Below, one piece after another: positions 6,388 to 28,511 of a DNA stretch of 33,790 nucleotides. The first letter of the stretch is position 1. Each line of letters begins with the position of its first letter. Origin of the DNA: a virus; the IMG/VR virus record IMGVR_UViG_3300026116_000074, positions 1 through 33,790 of that record. The stretch is one strand, 5' to 3'. Made by a program: the position numbers and the translations under genes. The notes below the pieces were generated by a model. The model was given only the letters and a program-made list of their open reading frames with translations, searched no databases and was not told where the DNA came from.

Positions 6388-7117
6388 GACCGATAGCTCA
6401 AACATTAATAAGCGGCAGTGGGGCGTAGTTTGTTACGTTGAAGAATTTTGGTGCGAGCGGAAAAAAATGCCGACGTACCAAATGATTCGCGAGAACGTCA
6501 ATGGCTTCAAAACTGATGAAGAAGTCGAGCTAGAGCTTTATAGTGCTCCCGTTCGCGTGCGCCTGACAAATAGGGGTGTTAGTTACCAAAAGCAGCTTAA
6601 GCGAAGCGATCCGGAATATATCAATCCGAGTCGGCTAAGTGACAAGCAGCTTGCGGTAATTAACACCCTTCTTAATCCCTTTGATAGGAGATCTCAAACT
6701 AAGAAATTGGCCGAATTGGGGATCGGTCATTCCCAACTTCATGGTTGGATGAAAGACAAGCGCTTTAGTACCTATTACAATGCGCGCGCTGAAGAATTGT
6801 TTGGAGCCGAGGGTCTCCCTGTGGCTCATGAAGCGCTTATGCGCAAAGTATCTGAAGGAAATCTCGGGGCGATTAAGCTTTACTATGAGGTTTCCGGGCG
6901 CCATACGGGTGTTAATAAGCAAGAGGTAATGAATCTTAAGCTCCTCTTTGCTAGATTTACTGAGATCCTCCAAAAGTATGTAACTCCTGACGTCATGCGT
7001 AAAATCATTAACGAGCTTAATGTGGCATCAATGAGTACGGGAGCAGTTACTTTTAATGACCCGGCCAGACCTGATTTCCCTGTGGCCGAGATTGAACGAA
7101 GTGAGTATGAAATCTGA
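6374..7117 (+). CDS. terS: Putative terminase small subunit (HTH, phBC6A51-like)
   Basis: The central part (LSDKQLAVINTLLNP ... KLAELGIGHSQLHGWMKDK) resembles the helix-turn-helix of phage small terminases, which bind the packaging site and hand DNA to the large subunit. The next segment, EALMRKVSEGNLGAIKLYYE then GRHTG, is typical of the small-terminase family that includes B. cereus phBC6A51 gp. The start is uncertain: GTG at 6374 is used, a TTG at 6338 also fits the frame, and none has a strong Shine-Dalgarno. Two exact dispersed motif copies (6817, 7078) are read as LPVAH and FPVAE. The large subunit lies four genes downstream, separated by the fibre genes. Confidence 0.6.
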   Translation: MVEDETDSSNINKRQWGVVCYVEEFWCERKKMPTYQMIRENVNGFKTDEEVELELYSAPVRVRLTNRGVSYQKQLKRSDPEYINPSRLSDKQLAVINTLLNPFDRRSQTKKLAELGIGHSQLHGWMKDKRFSTYYNARAEELFGAEGLPVAHEALMRKVSEGNLGAIKLYYEVSGRHTGVNKQEVMNLKLLFARFTEILQKYVTPDVMRKIINELNVASMSTGAVTFNDPARPDFPVAEIERSEYEI

Positions 7118-7824
7118 TGGCTACAACTACGCGTCTTTTACTTTTTAAACCAGCAGGTTCTGATCTAGCTACTGTAGTTTCATGCATTTCAGATCAGATG
7201 AATGCTATAGATAATTCAGCATGCAAAAGTCTTGTTACTCTAGAAGCTAGCCCCCCTGTGGCCGAATTTACAGGTCAGGAGTGGTTTACTAAGGACACCA
7301 AAAAATTCTTCTACTGGACAGGAAGTGCTTGGCAGCAGATAAGTCTTCCATCATCTGGTAATGCAGCAGCAGGAAGATTAGCATTTAACAAACCTCCCCT
7401 GTCTAGTTCTAATACTTTTAACACCGCAGCGAATCAAGAAAATGGACCGCAGCTTCACGCAGAAGTGAATGTTACCAATGGCAACACCTATATAGTTTAT
7501 GCTTCTATTTCTGTATTTGGAACTGCCACTCCCCCACCTTCTGGTTTTAATGATTGTTTTCTTCGTATGCGTGTGTCGTCGGGTGCAAGTGTAGTAACTA
7601 CAGCGGGTACACAATTTGCTCAAAACAATATAGGCTTTGGCCATATTGATTCTGGTTTTTCTCCTCAGAGTGACAGGTTTATGATTGGAAGATGGACAGC
7701 TAATTTTACAGGCGCAGCTTCTTTTGGTGTTTTTCTAGCCAAAGCTTCAGGTACTGAGGGAACCACCGCATTTGAAAGAACTAGTGGATCTTATCAATAT
7801 ATAGCTGTTGAAGAGGTGTCTTAA
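7117..7824 (+). CDS. Fibre/receptor-binding-like protein, paralogue 1 (235 aa)
   Basis: First of three tandem genes of similar size that share an architecture: an N-terminal ~75-residue segment ending in a Trp-containing hairpin (FFYWTGSAWQQI), then a C-terminal beta-rich domain with regular hydrophobic strands. This resembles short tail-fibre or spike proteins, with a small virion-anchoring part and a variable binding domain. The start overlaps the previous stop by one base (TGATG). A motif copy at 7254 is read as PPVAEF; this is the last copy before a ~4-kb motif-free stretch. A head-fibre or decoration protein is the main alternative. Confidence 0.5.
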   Translation: MATTTRLLLFKPAGSDLATVVSCISDQMNAIDNSACKSLVTLEASPPVAEFTGQEWFTKDTKKFFYWTGSAWQQISLPSSGNAAAGRLAFNKPPLSSSNTFNTAANQENGPQLHAEVNVTNGNTYIVYASISVFGTATPPPSGFNDCFLRMRVSSGASVVTTAGTQFAQNNIGFGHIDSGFSPQSDRFMIGRWTANFTGAASFGVFLAKASGTEGTTAFERTSGSYQYIAVEEVS

Positions 7825-9178: not shown

Positions 9179-9348
9179 ATGAACAAACCTCTACAGGCGA
9201 TCTTTTTGAAACAGCAGAAGGAAATATTAGGCCGCTAAGTGGTATGGGTATTACAGGTGACTATACTGCCGATCCGCTAGCTGTAATTAAATCATGTGTT
9301 AAACTTCTCGTCGCTCTAGGGGCAAAAGACAGAACTACGGAATCTTAA
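9175..9348 (+). CDS. 57-aa hypothetical protein before terminase
   Basis: A short frame fits exactly between the third fibre gene and the large terminase: its ATG overlaps the previous stop (ATGA at 9175-9178) and its TAA overlaps the terminase ATG (TAATG). The product is acidic and Thr/Gly-rich in the first ~35 residues, then has a helical end (AVIKSCVKLLVALG). Both coupled ends argue that it is real. Similar short helical tails occur at the ends of phage fibre-assembly and head-fibre proteins, but the function is unknown. Confidence 0.65.
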   Translation: MNEQTSTGDLFETAEGNIRPLSGMGITGDYTADPLAVIKSCVKLLVALGAKDRTTES

Positions 9349-10922
9349 TGGCTAAAGATATCTTTTCATTTCAAGACATGATGGGCGAGCTAGTTTCGAG
9401 TTTGAATAACTCACTATCTCGCCCTTCAGTTAAACAGTATATTCCGCACCAGAAGCAGCTTAAATTCCATCAATCTAAAAAAGTTGGTCGCCTGTATATT
9501 GGAGGTAACCGTTCAGGTAAAACAGTAGGCGGTATTGTAGAAGATGTTTGGTGGCTTACAGGAACCCATCCTTATATAGAGACTCCTCCCCCACCTATTC
9601 GAGGTCGAATCGTAACGGTTGACTTTGAAAATGGTTGGGAACTAATCATTAAACCTGAGCTTCAGAGATGGCTACCTGCCACAGAATTAGTAAATGGTTC
9701 ATGGCAAGATTCATGGTCAGAGAAATACAAAGTTCTGACTTTAGCAAACGGTTCTCGTCTAGACATTATGTCTTACAGTCAGGCCACAGAGAAGCAGGCT
9801 GGAACTTCTCGTCATTTCATTCATTTTGACGAAGAACCTCCGTCTGTGCTTTTTGATGAGAACATGATGCGTCTTATGGATACAGAGGGTTCGTGGTGGA
9901 TAACCATGACTCCTGTCGAAGGCGCTACATGGACAATGGACAGACTTTACGAAAAAGGTCTGGATGGAAAACATCCTCATATTGATGTAATTACAGTTAA
10001 TACTCGTGACAACCCTTATATTAGTGACGATGCTCCAAACATCTACACTGAGGGAATGAGCGAGGAATCTAGAAAGGCTCGTGAAGAAGGTGAATTTGTT
10101 CACCATGGTGGATTGATTTATAAATCCTTCGATTACAATTTTCATGTTAGAGACGAGTTCATTCCTCCACTCGACTGGCAATGGATTAGAAGTTGTGACC
10201 ATGGATACAATAACCCGACTGCGTGGCTTTATCATGCAGTCGCACCAGACGGTACTATCTTCACTTTCTACGAGCACTATCAATCACACTGGACTGTGGC
10301 AGAGCACGCTAAACGTCTACACGAAATCGATAGTCAGCAGGGCTTTAAAAAGCCTGAAAGAACAGTGGGTGATCCTGCAATTAAGCAGAGAACGGCAGAG
10401 ACAGGAAAATCCGTTCATCGACTCTATCTTGATAACGGAATTGCCATTCAAACATCCAATAATGATGTTAAAGCCGGAATCGACCAAGGCAACAATTACA
10501 TCAGATCAGGCAAATGGTTCGTAACTCGTAATTGCCGTAAATTTATCTGGGAGATGAAACGCTACAGATGGAAGACGCGCAATAATCGCAAGCTCCAAGA
10601 GATGCACGGCAATTACGACGAGCCACATAAGAAAGATGACCACGCCATGGATTCATGGCGGTATACACTAATCAATTATCCTATCCCCAAAAGGATAGAT
10701 GATTTGACTGCTGAGCAAAAGCGAATGGTTATGGCTCACGTTGAATCGCTTATCAAACCAACTACGCCAACTTCAATTCGTTTTGGTCGGCTTGACACAG
10801 GTATTAAGGCACCTTACGATAATCGCATAGGACGTGAAGAGGCAGGCAATTTCCTGGACACGCCTCTTATTAGAACTGAGTGGTCTGGGATTATCGACGA
10901 GCATCTTGGAGGGATTTGGTAA
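9348..10922 (+). CDS. terL: Terminase large subunit (524 aa)
   Basis: The ATPase-nuclease motor that pumps DNA into the prohead and cuts it. Walker A is GNRSGKT (residues 53-59), followed by the adenine-side region, and Walker B is IHFDEE (158-163) with the catalytic glutamate. The nuclease half shows three acidic positions expected of the RNase H-like fold: CDHGYNNPTAW (~residue 283), VGDPAIK (~340) and DDHAMDSWRY (~435). Full family length. It starts at the TAATG junction with the 57-aa gene and ends at TAATG with the next gene. It contains no exact copy of the dispersed motif, only 7-mer partial matches. Confidence 0.95.
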   Translation: MAKDIFSFQDMMGELVSSLNNSLSRPSVKQYIPHQKQLKFHQSKKVGRLYIGGNRSGKTVGGIVEDVWWLTGTHPYIETPPPPIRGRIVTVDFENGWELIIKPELQRWLPATELVNGSWQDSWSEKYKVLTLANGSRLDIMSYSQATEKQAGTSRHFIHFDEEPPSVLFDENMMRLMDTEGSWWITMTPVEGATWTMDRLYEKGLDGKHPHIDVITVNTRDNPYISDDAPNIYTEGMSEESRKAREEGEFVHHGGLIYKSFDYNFHVRDEFIPPLDWQWIRSCDHGYNNPTAWLYHAVAPDGTIFTFYEHYQSHWTVAEHAKRLHEIDSQQGFKKPERTVGDPAIKQRTAETGKSVHRLYLDNGIAIQTSNNDVKAGIDQGNNYIRSGKWFVTRNCRKFIWEMKRYRWKTRNNRKLQEMHGNYDEPHKKDDHAMDSWRYTLINYPIPKRIDDLTAEQKRMVMAHVESLIKPTTPTSIRFGRLDTGIKAPYDNRIGREEAGNFLDTPLIRTEWSGIIDEHLGGIW

Positions 10923-11398
10923 TGGCTGAAAAAGTTGAACCTGCTGATGGAATTATGGCCCATCTTAAGCGAGCTTTTGACTGGCTCGATAAACTAGCAG
11001 ATGATGAAACTAAAGCTGCACTTATGGAGCGAGTTTTTGAATTTCTCGAAGACAAGCTCATTGATGGATATGATGTTCAGCTAGTTCCAGACCCTAAAAG
11101 TAATCTTCAGGAGATGAAGCCTGGGTTTAACCTCAATGCCATTATCCGCGATATTGGTTCATCTAAGCGTATGCGAATGGATGAAGCCGACGCGGTTAGG
11201 CTACAGGAACGGCAAGGCACGCCACAGGAAGAAATCAATCTTAACACTGCAACTGCACGCGATGTTGCTCAGCTAGTAGTGGATCGTGCAGTTATTCAGA
11301 GTGATTTTGTTAAAAACACTCTGGTGGACGCACTAACTGTCGGACTTAACATTCTTATCCCTGATCCCGCCGAATGGCAGAGGAGCCGTTCCGAGTGA
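10922..11398 (+). CDS. Hypothetical protein between terminase and portal (158 aa)
   Basis: Not recognised. Predicted mostly helical and charged, with an amphipathic N-terminus (HLKRAFDWLDKLADDE) and an acidic middle. ATG at 10922 overlaps the terminase stop (TAATG), and the end overlaps the next start by 4 nt (GTGA). Position suggests a head-assembly or packaging accessory. One 8-mer motif at 11221 is read as TPQEE. Confidence 0.7.
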   Translation: MAEKVEPADGIMAHLKRAFDWLDKLADDETKAALMERVFEFLEDKLIDGYDVQLVPDPKSNLQEMKPGFNLNAIIRDIGSSKRMRMDEADAVRLQERQGTPQEEINLNTATARDVAQLVVDRAVIQSDFVKNTLVDALTVGLNILIPDPAEWQRSRSE

Positions 11399-11937
11399 TT
11401 AACATGCAGCCGGGCGGAAGATTTAACGTCTCTAAAACCCCTTCCGCACTTCCGTCAAAATGCGTTGTTTGTGGTGCATGGGGTGGAGACGGTAGGGACT
11501 TCGTAGATTTCGGCATGGACATTGATTTCTACGGTGCTATTTACTTCTGCTCGGTCTGCCTTACTGAATGTTGCAATAAGCTCGGTTACATTAGCCCAGA
11601 CCAGTGGCAGTCAGTTAACACAATGAATGACGAGCTTATTCGTCGCATTCAAATTCTAGAGGCTGATAATGTTAGTCTACGAACTGCTCTTGTTGCTACT
11701 GATTTTCTGCGCGGCGGCTACAGTGATGATTCTCTTGTGGCGAATGAGCAGAAGTCAGATAGTTCTGATGAAGGAATCTCACCAGAACCAGATCTATTTC
11801 ATGGAAAGGACAATAAGCGAACGGAATCAGACGATTCAGAATTTGATGGATCGTCTGATGAGCGAGGATACGAGAACGTACCGAGTTATGTCGGACGTGA
11901 CAGCGAAAACCTCGGCGGGTTCGGTTTCGAACTCTGA
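11395..11937 (+). CDS. Zinc-ribbon-like hypothetical protein (180 aa)
   Basis: The N-terminal part contains two cysteine knuckles, CVVCGAWG and CSVCLTECC, separated by ~35 residues, a good pattern for one treble-clef or ribbon zinc site. A short coiled-coil-like helix (DELIRRIQILEAD) follows, then an acidic, Ser/Asp-rich tail of low complexity that coincides with the out-of-frame overlap with the next gene. GTG at 11395 is chosen: AGAGGAG lies about nine bases upstream and the codon makes a GTGA overlap with the previous stop. The tail (from 11669) may exist mainly because the second frame is also coding. Confidence 0.6.
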   Translation: MINMQPGGRFNVSKTPSALPSKCVVCGAWGGDGRDFVDFGMDIDFYGAIYFCSVCLTECCNKLGYISPDQWQSVNTMNDELIRRIQILEADNVSLRTALVATDFLRGGYSDDSLVANEQKSDSSDEGISPEPDLFHGKDNKRTESDDSEFDGSSDERGYENVPSYVGRDSENLGGFGFEL

Positions 11938-12094
11938 CGTTGCTTATGTTTCAATGAGTGACGAATCAGAGTTGTCACGAATGATGGCAATGCAGCCTGG
12001 CATTGGTGATGCCATTTATGATGATGAAACTCTGAAATTTGCTGCGGACATGGGTATTATCACAGAAGTGATTAACAATGGTGGTCCGTCATGA
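11669..12094 (+). CDS. Membrane-anchored coiled-coil protein in overlapping frame (141 aa)
   Basis: Starts with ATG seven bases after AGAGG, inside the preceding gene and in the +1 frame; 269 bases are shared. Residues ~3-24 are a clear transmembrane helix (ELLLLLLIFCAAATVMIL), followed by a positive Arg/Ser stretch and a coiled-coil-like helix (~35-65). The C-terminal part, after the overlap, is acidic and ends four bases into the portal gene (ATGA). Inverse layouts of this kind are known for Rz/Rz1 spanin pairs, but those are Gram-negative systems and no lipobox is visible here. A membrane-tethered virion or lysis accessory is possible. Confidence 0.65.
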   Translation: MLVYELLLLLLIFCAAATVMILLWRMSRSQIVLMKESHQNQIYFMERTISERNQTIQNLMDRLMSEDTRTYRVMSDVTAKTSAGSVSNSDVAYVSMSDESELSRMMAMQPGIGDAIYDDETLKFAADMGIITEVINNGGPS

Positions 12095-14133
12095 GCCTTA
12101 TGGATTCGCTAACTTCTCTGCCACAGATGGAGATGTTTAGTGGTAAGTCCAAAGCATCTCGCGACCAAATCAAAAAGTACACGGTTTGGGCACACGATAT
12201 GCAATCGAGCATCAAAATGGCTCGTGCAAATATCGAACGTAATTGGTACCTTAATCTTTGCTTTTACTTTGGTCGTCAGTATGTTGTTTATAGACAGAAC
12301 TCTGGCCAAATTATTGGAACTACAGGAGGTCTTATCGTCCCTCCTGCTCCTTACTATGTTTCCCGACCAGTAATCAACAAAATTCGACCAATTATCCGTA
12401 CTGAGATTTCTAAACTGACATCACAGAAGCCTAGTGCTTATGTAGTGCCTGCTAGTTCTGAAGATAAAGATTTGTTCGCTGCCCAAGCAGGCGAGCAAAT
12501 TTGGGATAGCATTTACCGACAGTACAAGTTGCATACTGTTTTTAAGCGCGCAGTGTGGTGGAATCAGACTTGCGGTAATGGCTTTATTAAAGCCTATTGG
12601 GACGCGGACCAGGTCGACTACACTACAAATCCGCCACAGCAGGGCAAATTCTGCTTCTCACCAGAAACGCCGTTTCATATTTTTGTGCCTGATTTTCGTG
12701 AGCAGGAACTAGAGAATCAGCCGTTTGTCATTCACGCACAGCTGAGATCTAAGAATTGGGTTAAAGTCAATTATCCGGGCGTTGATTATAACAATGTAGC
12801 CGGAGCAGAAGAAATTCTGGAAGATACTTGGCTCAATTTGGTTGGCGCCACAGGGGTTAAAGGTCATGAACAAGTTCTAATCCTTGAATGCTGGGTTAAA
12901 CCGGGACATGATCCTGATTTTCCCGAAGGCGCTATGTTTACTGTTATTGGTGATAATGTTGTTCAAAGTTTCGACACTTGGCCTTATATACACAGGAATT
13001 ATCCTTTTGTTAAGCTTGATCATATTGAAAGCGGTAAGTTCTATAGTGATAGCACTATCGTCGATCTGATTCCTCTACAGAAAGAACTTAATCGCACACG
13101 CGGCCAAATCATTGAAGCTAAAAACCGAATGGCTAAGCCTAAGCTTTTGGCTGAGCGCGGTTCTGTTGTTCCACAGCAAATTACTTCTGAGCCTGGCCAG
13201 GTTGTTGAGTACGAGCAGGGTTTTAACCCCCCTGTGGCGCTAAAAATGGAGCCGCTTCCATCTTACGTCACTGAGGAACTAGAGCGCATTAATGCTGACA
13301 TGAATGACATTTCAGGTCAGCATGAGATTTCGCGCGGTCAAAACCCTACAGGTGTTACAGCTGCAACTGCTATCAGTTATTTGCAGGAACAGGACGACAC
13401 TAAGCTAGCTTCAACATTTAGTTCCATTGAATCAGCTTACGAAAAGATTGCATTTCTGACACTGTCTTATGTTCAGCAGTATTGGAATGTTGAACGCACA
13501 GTTAAAATTGTCGGCAATGACGCTAACTTTGATGCAATGAGCTTTAAAGGCTCAGACCTTGCTGGTAACACTGATATTCGTATTGAAGGAGGCTCAGCAC
13601 TTCCAACTTCTCGTGCTGCTAAGCAGGCATTCATTATGGATCTTATGAAAATGGGATTCATTGATCCTGCTAAGGGTCTGGAAGTTATGGAAATTGGCGG
13701 ACTTCAGAAGATTTATGAGTCAGTACAGCAAGATGTGCGTCAATCCCAGCGTGAAAATCTGAAAATGGCTGCTGTTACTCCTGACATAATGATGCAGTAC
13801 AGCCAGCAAGTTGCTATGCAACCGCCACAGATAGACAAAAATACAGGAATGCCTATTCCTCCTCCTCTAGTTGTTCCTGTCAATACGTGGGACAATCATC
13901 AAATGCACGTTGAGATTCACAATCGCTATCGAAAGTCACAAGCTTTTGATATGCTTACTCCAGAGGCAAAAGCTCTATTTGAATCTCATGTCAATGCTCA
14001 CCAGCAAGCAATGGCAATTCAGGCATTCCAACAAATGCAAATGGCCGGAGGAATGCAGCAACCCCCTGTGGCGGATTCTCAGTCAGCCACTCCCCCGCCC
14101 TCGGAAGGAATGAATCCAAATGCCCCAGCCTAA
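12091..14133 (+). CDS. Portal protein (680 aa)
   Basis: The dodecameric ring through which DNA enters and leaves the capsid, and the platform for the tail adaptor. Identification rests on length, order (terminase, portal, scaffold, capsid) and characteristic segments: an N-terminal helical region with a basic stretch (RPVINKIRPIIRTEISKL), a helical stem region (IPLQKELNRTRGQIIEAKNRM split by Ala and Arg, about residues 325-345), and a Gln/Pro/Met-rich C-terminal extension. It overlaps the preceding gene by ATGA and the next by 14 bases. Three exact motif copies (12847, 13230, 14064) are read as ATG, PVA and PVA peptides. Confidence 0.85.
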   Translation: MSLMDSLTSLPQMEMFSGKSKASRDQIKKYTVWAHDMQSSIKMARANIERNWYLNLCFYFGRQYVVYRQNSGQIIGTTGGLIVPPAPYYVSRPVINKIRPIIRTEISKLTSQKPSAYVVPASSEDKDLFAAQAGEQIWDSIYRQYKLHTVFKRAVWWNQTCGNGFIKAYWDADQVDYTTNPPQQGKFCFSPETPFHIFVPDFREQELENQPFVIHAQLRSKNWVKVNYPGVDYNNVAGAEEILEDTWLNLVGATGVKGHEQVLILECWVKPGHDPDFPEGAMFTVIGDNVVQSFDTWPYIHRNYPFVKLDHIESGKFYSDSTIVDLIPLQKELNRTRGQIIEAKNRMAKPKLLAERGSVVPQQITSEPGQVVEYEQGFNPPVALKMEPLPSYVTEELERINADMNDISGQHEISRGQNPTGVTAATAISYLQEQDDTKLASTFSSIESAYEKIAFLTLSYVQQYWNVERTVKIVGNDANFDAMSFKGSDLAGNTDIRIEGGSALPTSRAAKQAFIMDLMKMGFIDPAKGLEVMEIGGLQKIYESVQQDVRQSQRENLKMAAVTPDIMMQYSQQVAMQPPQIDKNTGMPIPPPLVVPVNTWDNHQMHVEIHNRYRKSQAFDMLTPEAKALFESHVNAHQQAMAIQAFQQMQMAGGMQQPPVADSQSATPPPSEGMNPNAPA

Positions 14134-17387: not shown

Positions 17388-17860
17388 TGGATCTGCGAAA
17401 CAGTGCTCTATTGACAGAAACTGGCCATTTTGTAAGTGAAAATTGGTCACATCTTAATGAATTGCTTCAGGGTTTTGACCCTGGCCTAGAACTTCACTGG
17501 ATCCCTACGGATAAGCGGATGACGGATGAGAAGTATCCTTACCGCATTATACATCGCCCGCCTGCAACTTCGAGTATGGCACCTTACATTGTCATGTACT
17601 GTAGAGAAACTGATTCGCCACAGGAGGTCTTTGCAAAAATCATTGCTGGCGACAATTGGAAGACTAATGTTCAAGCACAATTGGACGCTCGCATTACAGC
17701 ACAGCGGCTATTCGAGAGGAAAAAGCAGCTTGACGAAATGGCAGAAGCTGCTGATCTTGCTCATTTCCTGCTCGTACGTGGTGGCAATTACACTACTATT
17801 CGTCACCCAAAAACTAATGAACTAGTGAAATTCGATAGCCACAGGTTTAGGATGCGTTGA
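17387..17860 (+). CDS. Hypothetical protein (157 aa)
   Basis: Not recognised. The first ~80 residues look globular with several prolines and aromatic residues (ELHWIPTDKR, YPYRIIHRPP). The C-terminal half is a long charged helix (ITAQRLFERKKQLDEMAEAAD) followed by a basic end (RHPKTNELVKFDSHRFRMR). It starts with a TAATG overlap and ends one base into the amidase start. Between capsid and tail genes, it might be a head-completion or chaperone protein. 8-mer motif copies at 17617 and 17838. Confidence 0.7.
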   Translation: MDLRNSALLTETGHFVSENWSHLNELLQGFDPGLELHWIPTDKRMTDEKYPYRIIHRPPATSSMAPYIVMYCRETDSPQEVFAKIIAGDNWKTNVQAQLDARITAQRLFERKKQLDEMAEAADLAHFLLVRGGNYTTIRHPKTNELVKFDSHRFRMR

Positions 17861-18531
17861 TGTACGTAACTGTTCTCAGATCAGTTTTGGGTTGGCCTGA
17901 TACAAAGAACATCCCCAATGCTCCAACTAATAAGGGCATTGTGATTCACTACGATGGCGGCTCGCGAAATCTGACGGCCAAAGAGCACCCAGCCTGTCTA
18001 GATTACTGGAAATGGTGTAGAGACTTTCACATCAAAACCAATGGCTGGAAAGATATAGGCTACTCTTACGGAATTTGCCCTCACGGCGTTCTTTTTGAAG
18101 GACGTGGATTCGGCAGAGAGCAGGCCGCTCAACCTGGCGGAAATAGGGACTGGCTTAGCGTTACACTAATGCTAGGTAAAAAAGAATCGCCAACTGAAAA
18201 GCAAATCGCCGCCTTTAATGAGTTTAGAACTAAACTAGTTCGTACTAAGAAAATCGCCGAAGCTGTCTCTTTTCACTCAATGTTCTTTGCCACAGATTGC
18301 CCTGGAGACATTGTTAGAAATAAAATCGCTCACGGTGAGTTTTCTAAGCTTCTCCCTGTGGCTGACGCCGACCAATATTGGTCGGCGTTGCAAGAACTTC
18401 CGTTGCTAAACGATCTTGGCCCTAACGCAAAAGCTGTTGTAAAATCAATGCAGCGTGCGCTAAATCTTGACGATGATGGCGATATTGGTCCTAATACATG
18501 GTCGGCAATCATTAAGAAGGTTCTTAAATGA
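17860..18531 (+). CDS. Endolysin: N-acetylmuramoyl-L-alanine amidase with PG-binding domain (223 aa)
   Basis: Cleaves the bond between muramic acid and L-alanine in host peptidoglycan to release progeny. The N-terminal amidase_2-type domain shows the expected zinc ligands: VIHYDGG (His30), SFHS (His139) and DCPG (Cys147), plus the GYSYGICPHGVLFEGRG strand around residues 67-83. Residues ~184-223 form a peptidoglycan-binding repeat (VKSMQRALNLDDDGDIG). There is no signal peptide, so a holin or other export route is needed. ATG at 17860 is preceded by AGGATG and overlaps the previous stop by one base. It sits inside the virion operon, so a virion-associated role is also possible. A motif copy (18354) falls in the linker (LPVAD). 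Confidence 0.92.
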   Translation: MYVTVLRSVLGWPDTKNIPNAPTNKGIVIHYDGGSRNLTAKEHPACLDYWKWCRDFHIKTNGWKDIGYSYGICPHGVLFEGRGFGREQAAQPGGNRDWLSVTLMLGKKESPTEKQIAAFNEFRTKLVRTKKIAEAVSFHSMFFATDCPGDIVRNKIAHGEFSKLLPVADADQYWSALQELPLLNDLGPNAKAVVKSMQRALNLDDDGDIGPNTWSAIIKKVLK

Positions 18532-28271: not shown

Positions 28272-28511
28272 ATGACAGCACTAGACGACCTTAAGGTTAT
28301 TAGAGAGTCTGTCAAAAAGCTAGAAGAAAAAGTCGAGAAACTTGAAACGAAACTTGAAAGTGTAAAAACTGACGTTGCTACCTTCCGTCTTAACGAAGCA
28401 ATCAGCAAAACGGAGTTCAAGTACATAAAGTGGTCTACTGGAGTTATCATTGTAATGCTAGGAGCTATTGCGCTAAAGCTAGGAATACCTATCCATCTTA
28501 ATGTTCCTTAA
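28272..28511 (+). CDS. XhlA-like membrane protein, holin candidate (79 aa)
   Basis: The first ~50 residues form a heptad-patterned coiled coil (ESVKKLEEKVEKLETKLES). A single transmembrane helix (about 54-71, STGVIIVMLGAIALKL) follows, with a short polar end. This is the arrangement of the haemolysin XhlA family, which works with holins and endolysins in several Gram-positive phages. The amidase lies ten genes upstream and lacks a signal peptide, so an export or membrane partner is expected. It starts two bases after the previous stop and is the last gene of the virion operon. Confidence 0.65.
   Translation: MTALDDLKVIRESVKKLEEKVEKLETKLESVKTDVATFRLNEAISKTEFKYIKWSTGVIIVMLGAIALKLGIPIHLNVP

Follow-up and report, generated by a model that had tools for sequence, protein, structure and literature searches.

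Does a single stretch of DNA between the terminase and portal genes of this phage encode two proteins at once, and if so, why would a membrane protein be one of them? The window, by which we mean the whole 33,790-base stretch analysed, runs from the terminase large subunit through three small genes to the portal, and the open reading frames of the last two small genes overlap. The terminase large subunit (9348..10922, + strand), recognized by phrog_5653 (E 1.6e-22) and by tblastn to the Jasmine terminase, is followed by a coupled gene with no assigned role (10922..11398, +), for which Pfam gave nothing at E<=1 and PHROG a single weak match (E 0.0045), and whose stop overlaps the GTG at 11395 that opens the first overlapping gene (11395..11937, +). 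The frame of this gene is open from an ATG at 11374 to 11937, and GTG 11395, the start adopted in an earlier note on this DNA, has the best Shine-Dalgarno match, a Shine-Dalgarno-like AGAGGAG (11379..11385, +). The second overlapping gene (11669..12094, +) begins with an ATG behind a Shine-Dalgarno-like AGAGG that lies within the first gene (11658..11662, +), and it ends in a stop codon that shares bases with the portal ATG at 12091 (ATGA); the portal gene itself (12091..14133, +) is identified by phrog_156 (E 1.8e-50) and by Pfam P22_portal (E 5.2e-24). The dual-coding stretch shared by the two genes is 269 nt long (11669..11937, +), with the second gene in the +1 frame of the first. The earlier note had claimed as much, namely two coding frames sharing this interval, each gene with its own Shine-Dalgarno and a coupled junction, and an acidic low-complexity tail opposite a transmembrane helix in the overlap; its description is borne out on every one of these points and, where the overlap itself is concerned, turns out to have been understated. 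Elsewhere in the window lie an endolysin gene (17857-18531), about 6 kb from the overlapping pair, and, apart from it, a 79-aa coiled-coil protein with a C-terminal transmembrane helix (28272-28511, +), a holin/XhlA-like candidate.

Relatives, host and conservation of the overlap

The portal served as the query for gathering relatives because no stretch of the protein alignments A1 and A2 was conserved enough for direct searching. The loci comprise 40 from the portal search, the best 80 of 364, two genome contigs, further branches, six annotated records and the window; 122 loci hold the whole interval and make up the sample, with 93 distinct sequences, and outside it stand 12 loci that end before the interval, together with three (L122, L136, L137) that are later copies of contigs or phages already included. 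By portal and terminase, the best named relatives are Arthrobacter phages of the genus Jasminevirus, Microbacterium phage Shocker and Cellulosimicrobium phage DS1, and complete relatives are about 45 kb long. The whole module is also found on a Streptomyces griseosporeus contig (NZ_BNBR01000011.1, 46,429 bases; locus L119), where the phage may be a persisting episome or a carried-over lytic phage. Taken together, these actinobacterial named relatives, the Streptomyces griseosporeus contig and a WhiB-like gene present in the window make it very likely that the host of the window phage is an actinobacterium, and the overlapping pair, as judged from sequence comparison, belongs to a large group of short-tailed actinobacterial phages (podoviruses).

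Across this group the arrangement is constant. The overlap is present and in the +1 frame in all 93 distinct sequences (122 loci), with a length of 74-332 nt (median 227), and the stops in close relatives that the earlier note had named as evidence against it were looked for without refuting it, both frames being open in 93/93. Among the controls, 227-nt windows read in the portal +1 frame (29 windows) are free of stops in 3% of relatives at the median and never in more than 13%, the portal +2 frame is open in at most 3%, and a chance +1 ORF in the portal gene of the window (12140-12373, 77 aa, with a hydrophobic stretch) is open in just 7 of 93 relatives; because the portal frames are so rarely open, composition does not account for how deeply the overlap is conserved. 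Within the window alone, the first frame is open in 0.3% of synonymous shuffles of the second gene and the second frame in about 25% of synonymous shuffles of the first, so this genome by itself would not prove the second gene. Two variants of the layout were seen: one locus (L101) has an extra small ORF between the second gene and the portal, and two that form one lineage (L046 and L121) keep the overlap with a second ORF that has no transmembrane helix. We considered that ORF as a member of the same family and rejected it, no relation being detectable by comparison.

In none of the six annotated relatives' records is the full second gene annotated. It is absent from the annotation of Jasmine, Brad, Casserole and DS1 (in the gp13 region of Jasmine, NC_041875.1, the second ORF lies unannotated at record positions 7005-7460), and it is annotated short in ctEqG8 and in Shocker, where gp19 begins 99 nt late. 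Nor did we find a description of the overlap in the open-access literature, a search outside which most subscription journals fall. All six annotated relatives examined illustrate how gene callers can miss a conserved head-operon gene, and the second frame adds to these cultured, laboratory-tractable phages a gene that is missing or truncated in their records.

Selection on both frames and the start of the second gene

Which of the two frames does selection see? The earlier note had proposed examining codon-position substitution patterns in homologues, and we ran this comparison on 16 disjoint pairs, leaving out pairs at >=97% identity. Divergence at codon positions 1/2/3 of the first gene is 0.22/0.15/0.47 in the part before the second gene, 0.38/0.25/0.23 in the overlap and 0.38/0.25/0.17 in the unique part of the second gene. 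Because the first codon position of the first frame coincides with the third of the second, the overlap diverges in the pattern of the second gene. This switch at the point where the second gene begins is present in 16/16 and 15/16 pairs, the exception being L124/L125; with substitutions moving to the third positions of that gene, its frame is the better conserved of the two. To this extent the suggestion that the second frame is the constrained one holds; it fails insofar as the first frame is also selected in the overlap. Holding the membrane protein constant and redrawing its synonymous codons leaves the first frame open in 0.6% of trials at the median for 78 loci, or 1% for 93 loci, and the tail of the first protein is more acidic than in synonymous shuffles of the second gene in 91/93 sequences (median z 3.2). 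In 89/93 sequences the second protein, for its part, has a higher hydrophobicity than synonymous shuffles of the first gene produce (median z 2.2). We are therefore nearly certain, on these patterns of substitution and composition, that both frames represent translated products under selection, and the locus would be a clear case in which the synonymous freedom of each protein is used by the other frame. As far as sequence comparison reaches, this pair of overlapping same-strand genes is an old feature of the head-gene operon in actinobacterial podoviruses.

How the second frame is entered is suggested by the sequence around its start. The nearest upstream stop in the second frame lies a median of 12 nt from the start, and within 60 nt in 86/93 sequences. 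At the first candidate start, 70/93 sequences have a Shine-Dalgarno match of 4 nt or more, compared with 282 of 1032 control starts taken from the third frame, and with the best of three starts the counts are 86/93 against 184/316 controls; scoring the best of several starts gave 97% of 78 with a Shine-Dalgarno, a figure that looks stronger than the matched control allows. This closure of the second frame just upstream, together with the Shine-Dalgarno enrichment, favours internal initiation of the second gene over a frameshift product. A programmed +1 frameshift, fusing both frames into one longer protein, would find the frame always +1 and overlap to spare; it is nonetheless very improbable, because the second frame is closed just before its own start codon and because a Shine-Dalgarno is commoner at that start than at control starts. 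That the second frame is an unexpressed compositional by-product of the first, an idea to which the shuffles of the window alone lend something, is hardly credible for a frame that is kept in every distinct sequence, encodes conserved motifs and takes its substitutions at its own third positions.

The two proteins

The first protein is zinc-ribbon-like, with a Cys4 pattern followed by a helix and a disordered acidic, Ser-rich tail. In the window its cysteines form two CxxC-type knuckles (C30/C33/C59/C62), and AlphaFold2 gives a confident small beta/zinc domain, a helix at 75-113 and a low-confidence tail over most of the overlap. The Cys4 pattern is found in 76 of the 93 distinct relatives. 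Among the 17 without it are the Jasmine and Shocker branches, for whose aligned family a profile comparison still shows a relation to the first protein (prob. 99.2). Loss of the zinc-binding cysteines was noted in L123-L132, L134, L135, L044, L042, L043 and L047 of the Shocker and Jasmine branches, and their retention in L133, of the Shocker branch. A separate subgroup (L014, L018-L021, L023-L025, L028, L032, L035, L037) carries an N-terminal addition with a YGRLPTExDPDY-like motif. The first protein has no PDB fold match at E<=0.001, and the weaker matches were rejected: the best, at Z 3.5, covers the helix only, and PARP-1 zinc fingers and RING domains follow at Z 2.0-2.9. A fold search of BFVD returned one match (E 1.2e-6), an unnamed 175-aa protein, A0A898KB96, which may be the protein of that length in Cellulosimicrobium phage DS1. 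For neither overlapping protein did we find a convincing PHROG, Pfam or NCBIfam family (1-2 members per family, E no better than 1e-4, and for NCBIfam weak single matches at most), and profile searches of PDB sequences gave nothing better than E 0.03.

The second protein is mostly one long helix. Its start site, its N-terminal transmembrane helix and the first part of its coiled coil are all encoded in the +1 frame of the first protein's tail, and its conserved core consists of a motif after the coiled coil, with a consensus of approximately SxDxxTFQxL, and a later DDxxE-like motif; the AlphaFold2 model has a helix at residues 2-64 and three shorter helices, with less certain stretches between. 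The relatives' second proteins are 15-31% identical to that of the window. A transmembrane helix (hydropathy >=1.6) is present in 91/93 second proteins, with L046 and L121 as the exceptions, and the helix, at the very N-terminus, is strongly hydrophobic (median KD19 2.6). The second gene very probably encodes a small, single-pass membrane protein. Lysine and arginine are richer after the helix than before it in 75/91 proteins when the 5'-most start is used, the asymmetry being missing in the other 16/91, and in 74/78 when the start with the best Shine-Dalgarno is used. This excess of positive charge after the helix leads to a predicted N-out/C-in orientation with a cytoplasmic C-terminus, that is, by prediction, a membrane anchor with its soluble part in the cytoplasm.

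A possible role beside the portal, and known systems

Why place a membrane protein directly before the portal? A candidate portal start lies within 30 nt of the stop of the second gene in 74/93 sequences, with the candidate nearest that stop taken as the portal start, a choice that biases toward short distances. We suggest a partner in head assembly, because the second gene stands before the portal and is coupled to it, is present almost universally and encodes a protein of predicted C-in topology. The second protein would start from its own internal ribosome-binding site, enter the cytoplasmic membrane so that the N-terminus faces outward while the coiled coil and the conserved acidic C-terminus stay on the cytoplasmic side, and tether the portal, or the portal together with the first protein, to the membrane during procapsid nucleation. 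We give this explanation as a whole (overlapping pair, internal start and membrane-tethered portal during procapsid nucleation) slightly less than an even chance; the role itself, that of a tether in the membrane whose coiled coil extends into the cytoplasm and which acts with the portal in head assembly, we put forward tentatively.

There is precedent for portals at membranes. According to an excerpt of PMC4493910, assembly of the T4 portal takes place on the inner membrane and involves gp40 and YidC; an excerpt of a cryo-tomography study (PMC13212656) places the formation of SPP1 procapsid precursors, together with the portal, at the membrane and calls the attachment mechanism presently unknown. 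In a wider comparison, which was a small and non-random sample, predicted small single-pass proteins directly precede the portal in the Bacillus Pagevirus phages (Pascal, Pony) and in the Paenibacillus phages SV21/API480. Terminase and portal adjoin, with nothing annotated between them, in Stenotrophomonas, Chlorobiaceae and TM7 phages and one environmental podovirus, and the gene before the portal is not clearly a membrane protein in archaeal MetMV and three environmental phages; the Megaira and Rhizobium records were unused, having no portal neighbourhood (the Rhizobium record is cut), and the Silvanigrella record carries no annotation. In the podovirus ct52p938 (L145, 1727-2044) a cysteine-rich 105-aa protein, annotated as RNA polymerase, stands before the portal; it is perhaps a zinc-ribbon protein without a membrane partner. 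A more speculative extension of the tether proposal, and one we consider rather doubtful, is that the second protein is a dedicated anchor that nucleates the portal or procapsid at the membrane, and that the Bacillus and Paenibacillus single-pass proteins do likewise, supplying the SPP1-type attachment. If the tether is real, the question of how portals reach the membrane, raised for SPP1 in the same excerpt of PMC13212656, would have an answer in molecular terms that can be tested.

The strongest rival of the tether is an ejection (pilot) protein, packaged near the portal and inserting into the cytoplasmic membrane of the next cell as the DNA goes in. Its gene adjoins the portal in a podovirus, and such a role fits the apparent Gram-positive link: small single-pass proteins precede the portal in both of the other Gram-positive-host groups examined, and none lies between the terminase and the portal in the Stenotrophomonas and Chlorobiaceae relatives, as a role specific to the envelope predicts. 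The lack of a similar gene in these relatives, whose hosts have an outer membrane, fits entry through the envelope as well as it fits a role in assembly. A strongly hydrophobic helix at the extreme N-terminus would, however, be expected to enter the membrane during synthesis, and the charge pattern fits insertion from the cytoplasm, which leaves the ejection role unlikely. We think it improbable that the second gene encodes a membrane exclusion or host take-over protein carried in the head operon: it is small and changes fast among relatives, as such proteins might, but in 91/93 distinct loci it occupies the same place before the portal, where accessory genes would come and go. A lysis protein (a holin, a spanin-like protein or a single-gene lysis protein resembling phiX174 E) would account for a single N-terminal helix and for overprinting, as in the phiX174 D/E pair outlined in an excerpt of PMC8227390, but seems more improbable still, given the endolysin elsewhere at 17857-18531, another holin-like ORF at 28272-28511, the conserved endolysin and holin genes reported for cluster AV phages in an excerpt of PMC12628072, the lack of annotation of the second gene in three Jasminevirus records, and the lipobox searches described below.

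How, then, does the pair compare with known systems? The Rz/Rz1 spanins likewise combine overlapping or nested frames with a coiled coil and a transmembrane helix and are often overlooked by gene callers, as stated in an excerpt of PMC6139136. The earlier note had remarked that the locus recalls spanin-type nesting, of which only the bare nesting holds, against the location, the predicted topology and the missing lipobox, and a spanin identity for the second gene product is not supported. A spanin would have its coiled coil outside the cytoplasm, and the predicted orientation here is N-out/C-in in the 75/91 and 74/78 proteins with the charge asymmetry; a spanin would sit in a Gram-negative lysis cassette, and the present gene sits between terminase and portal in a phage with actinobacterial relatives and a WhiB gene. 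A lipobox-like match within the first 40 residues was found in 0/93 first proteins and in just 6/93 second proteins, with none in the window. Thus, unlike Rz/Rz1, the pair has another location, the opposite predicted topology, no lipoprotein partner and a host without a Gram-negative outer membrane.

In phiX174, gene E is nested within gene D. As in our pair, a transmembrane protein is there encoded in the +1 frame of a same-strand gene, and T at the third positions of one frame supplies second positions of the other and hence hydrophobic residues, according to the excerpt of PMC8227390. The contexts differ, since E is the lysis protein of a tiny phage, whereas here the overlap is partial and lies in the head operon of a tailed phage with a separate endolysin. 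Closer in its proposed function is T4 gp40, which acts with YidC and, in the excerpt of PMC4493910, is proposed to aid portal assembly on the inner membrane; for the second protein, in contrast, such a function is suggested by position and topology. Pagevirus gp3 (Pascal, Pony; phrog_14137) also has an N-terminal transmembrane helix and a coiled coil and lies upstream of, and coupled to, a related portal, but it shows no detectable sequence similarity, which limits the parallel to position and layout, and no zinc-ribbon gene overlaps it; a homology suspected by eye (xDP..xQA..AM) was rejected by profile comparison. In the gp13 region of the Jasminevirus genome, that of Jasmine (NC_041875.1), the first protein has lost the four cysteines and the second gene is unannotated, but the gene pair is the same.
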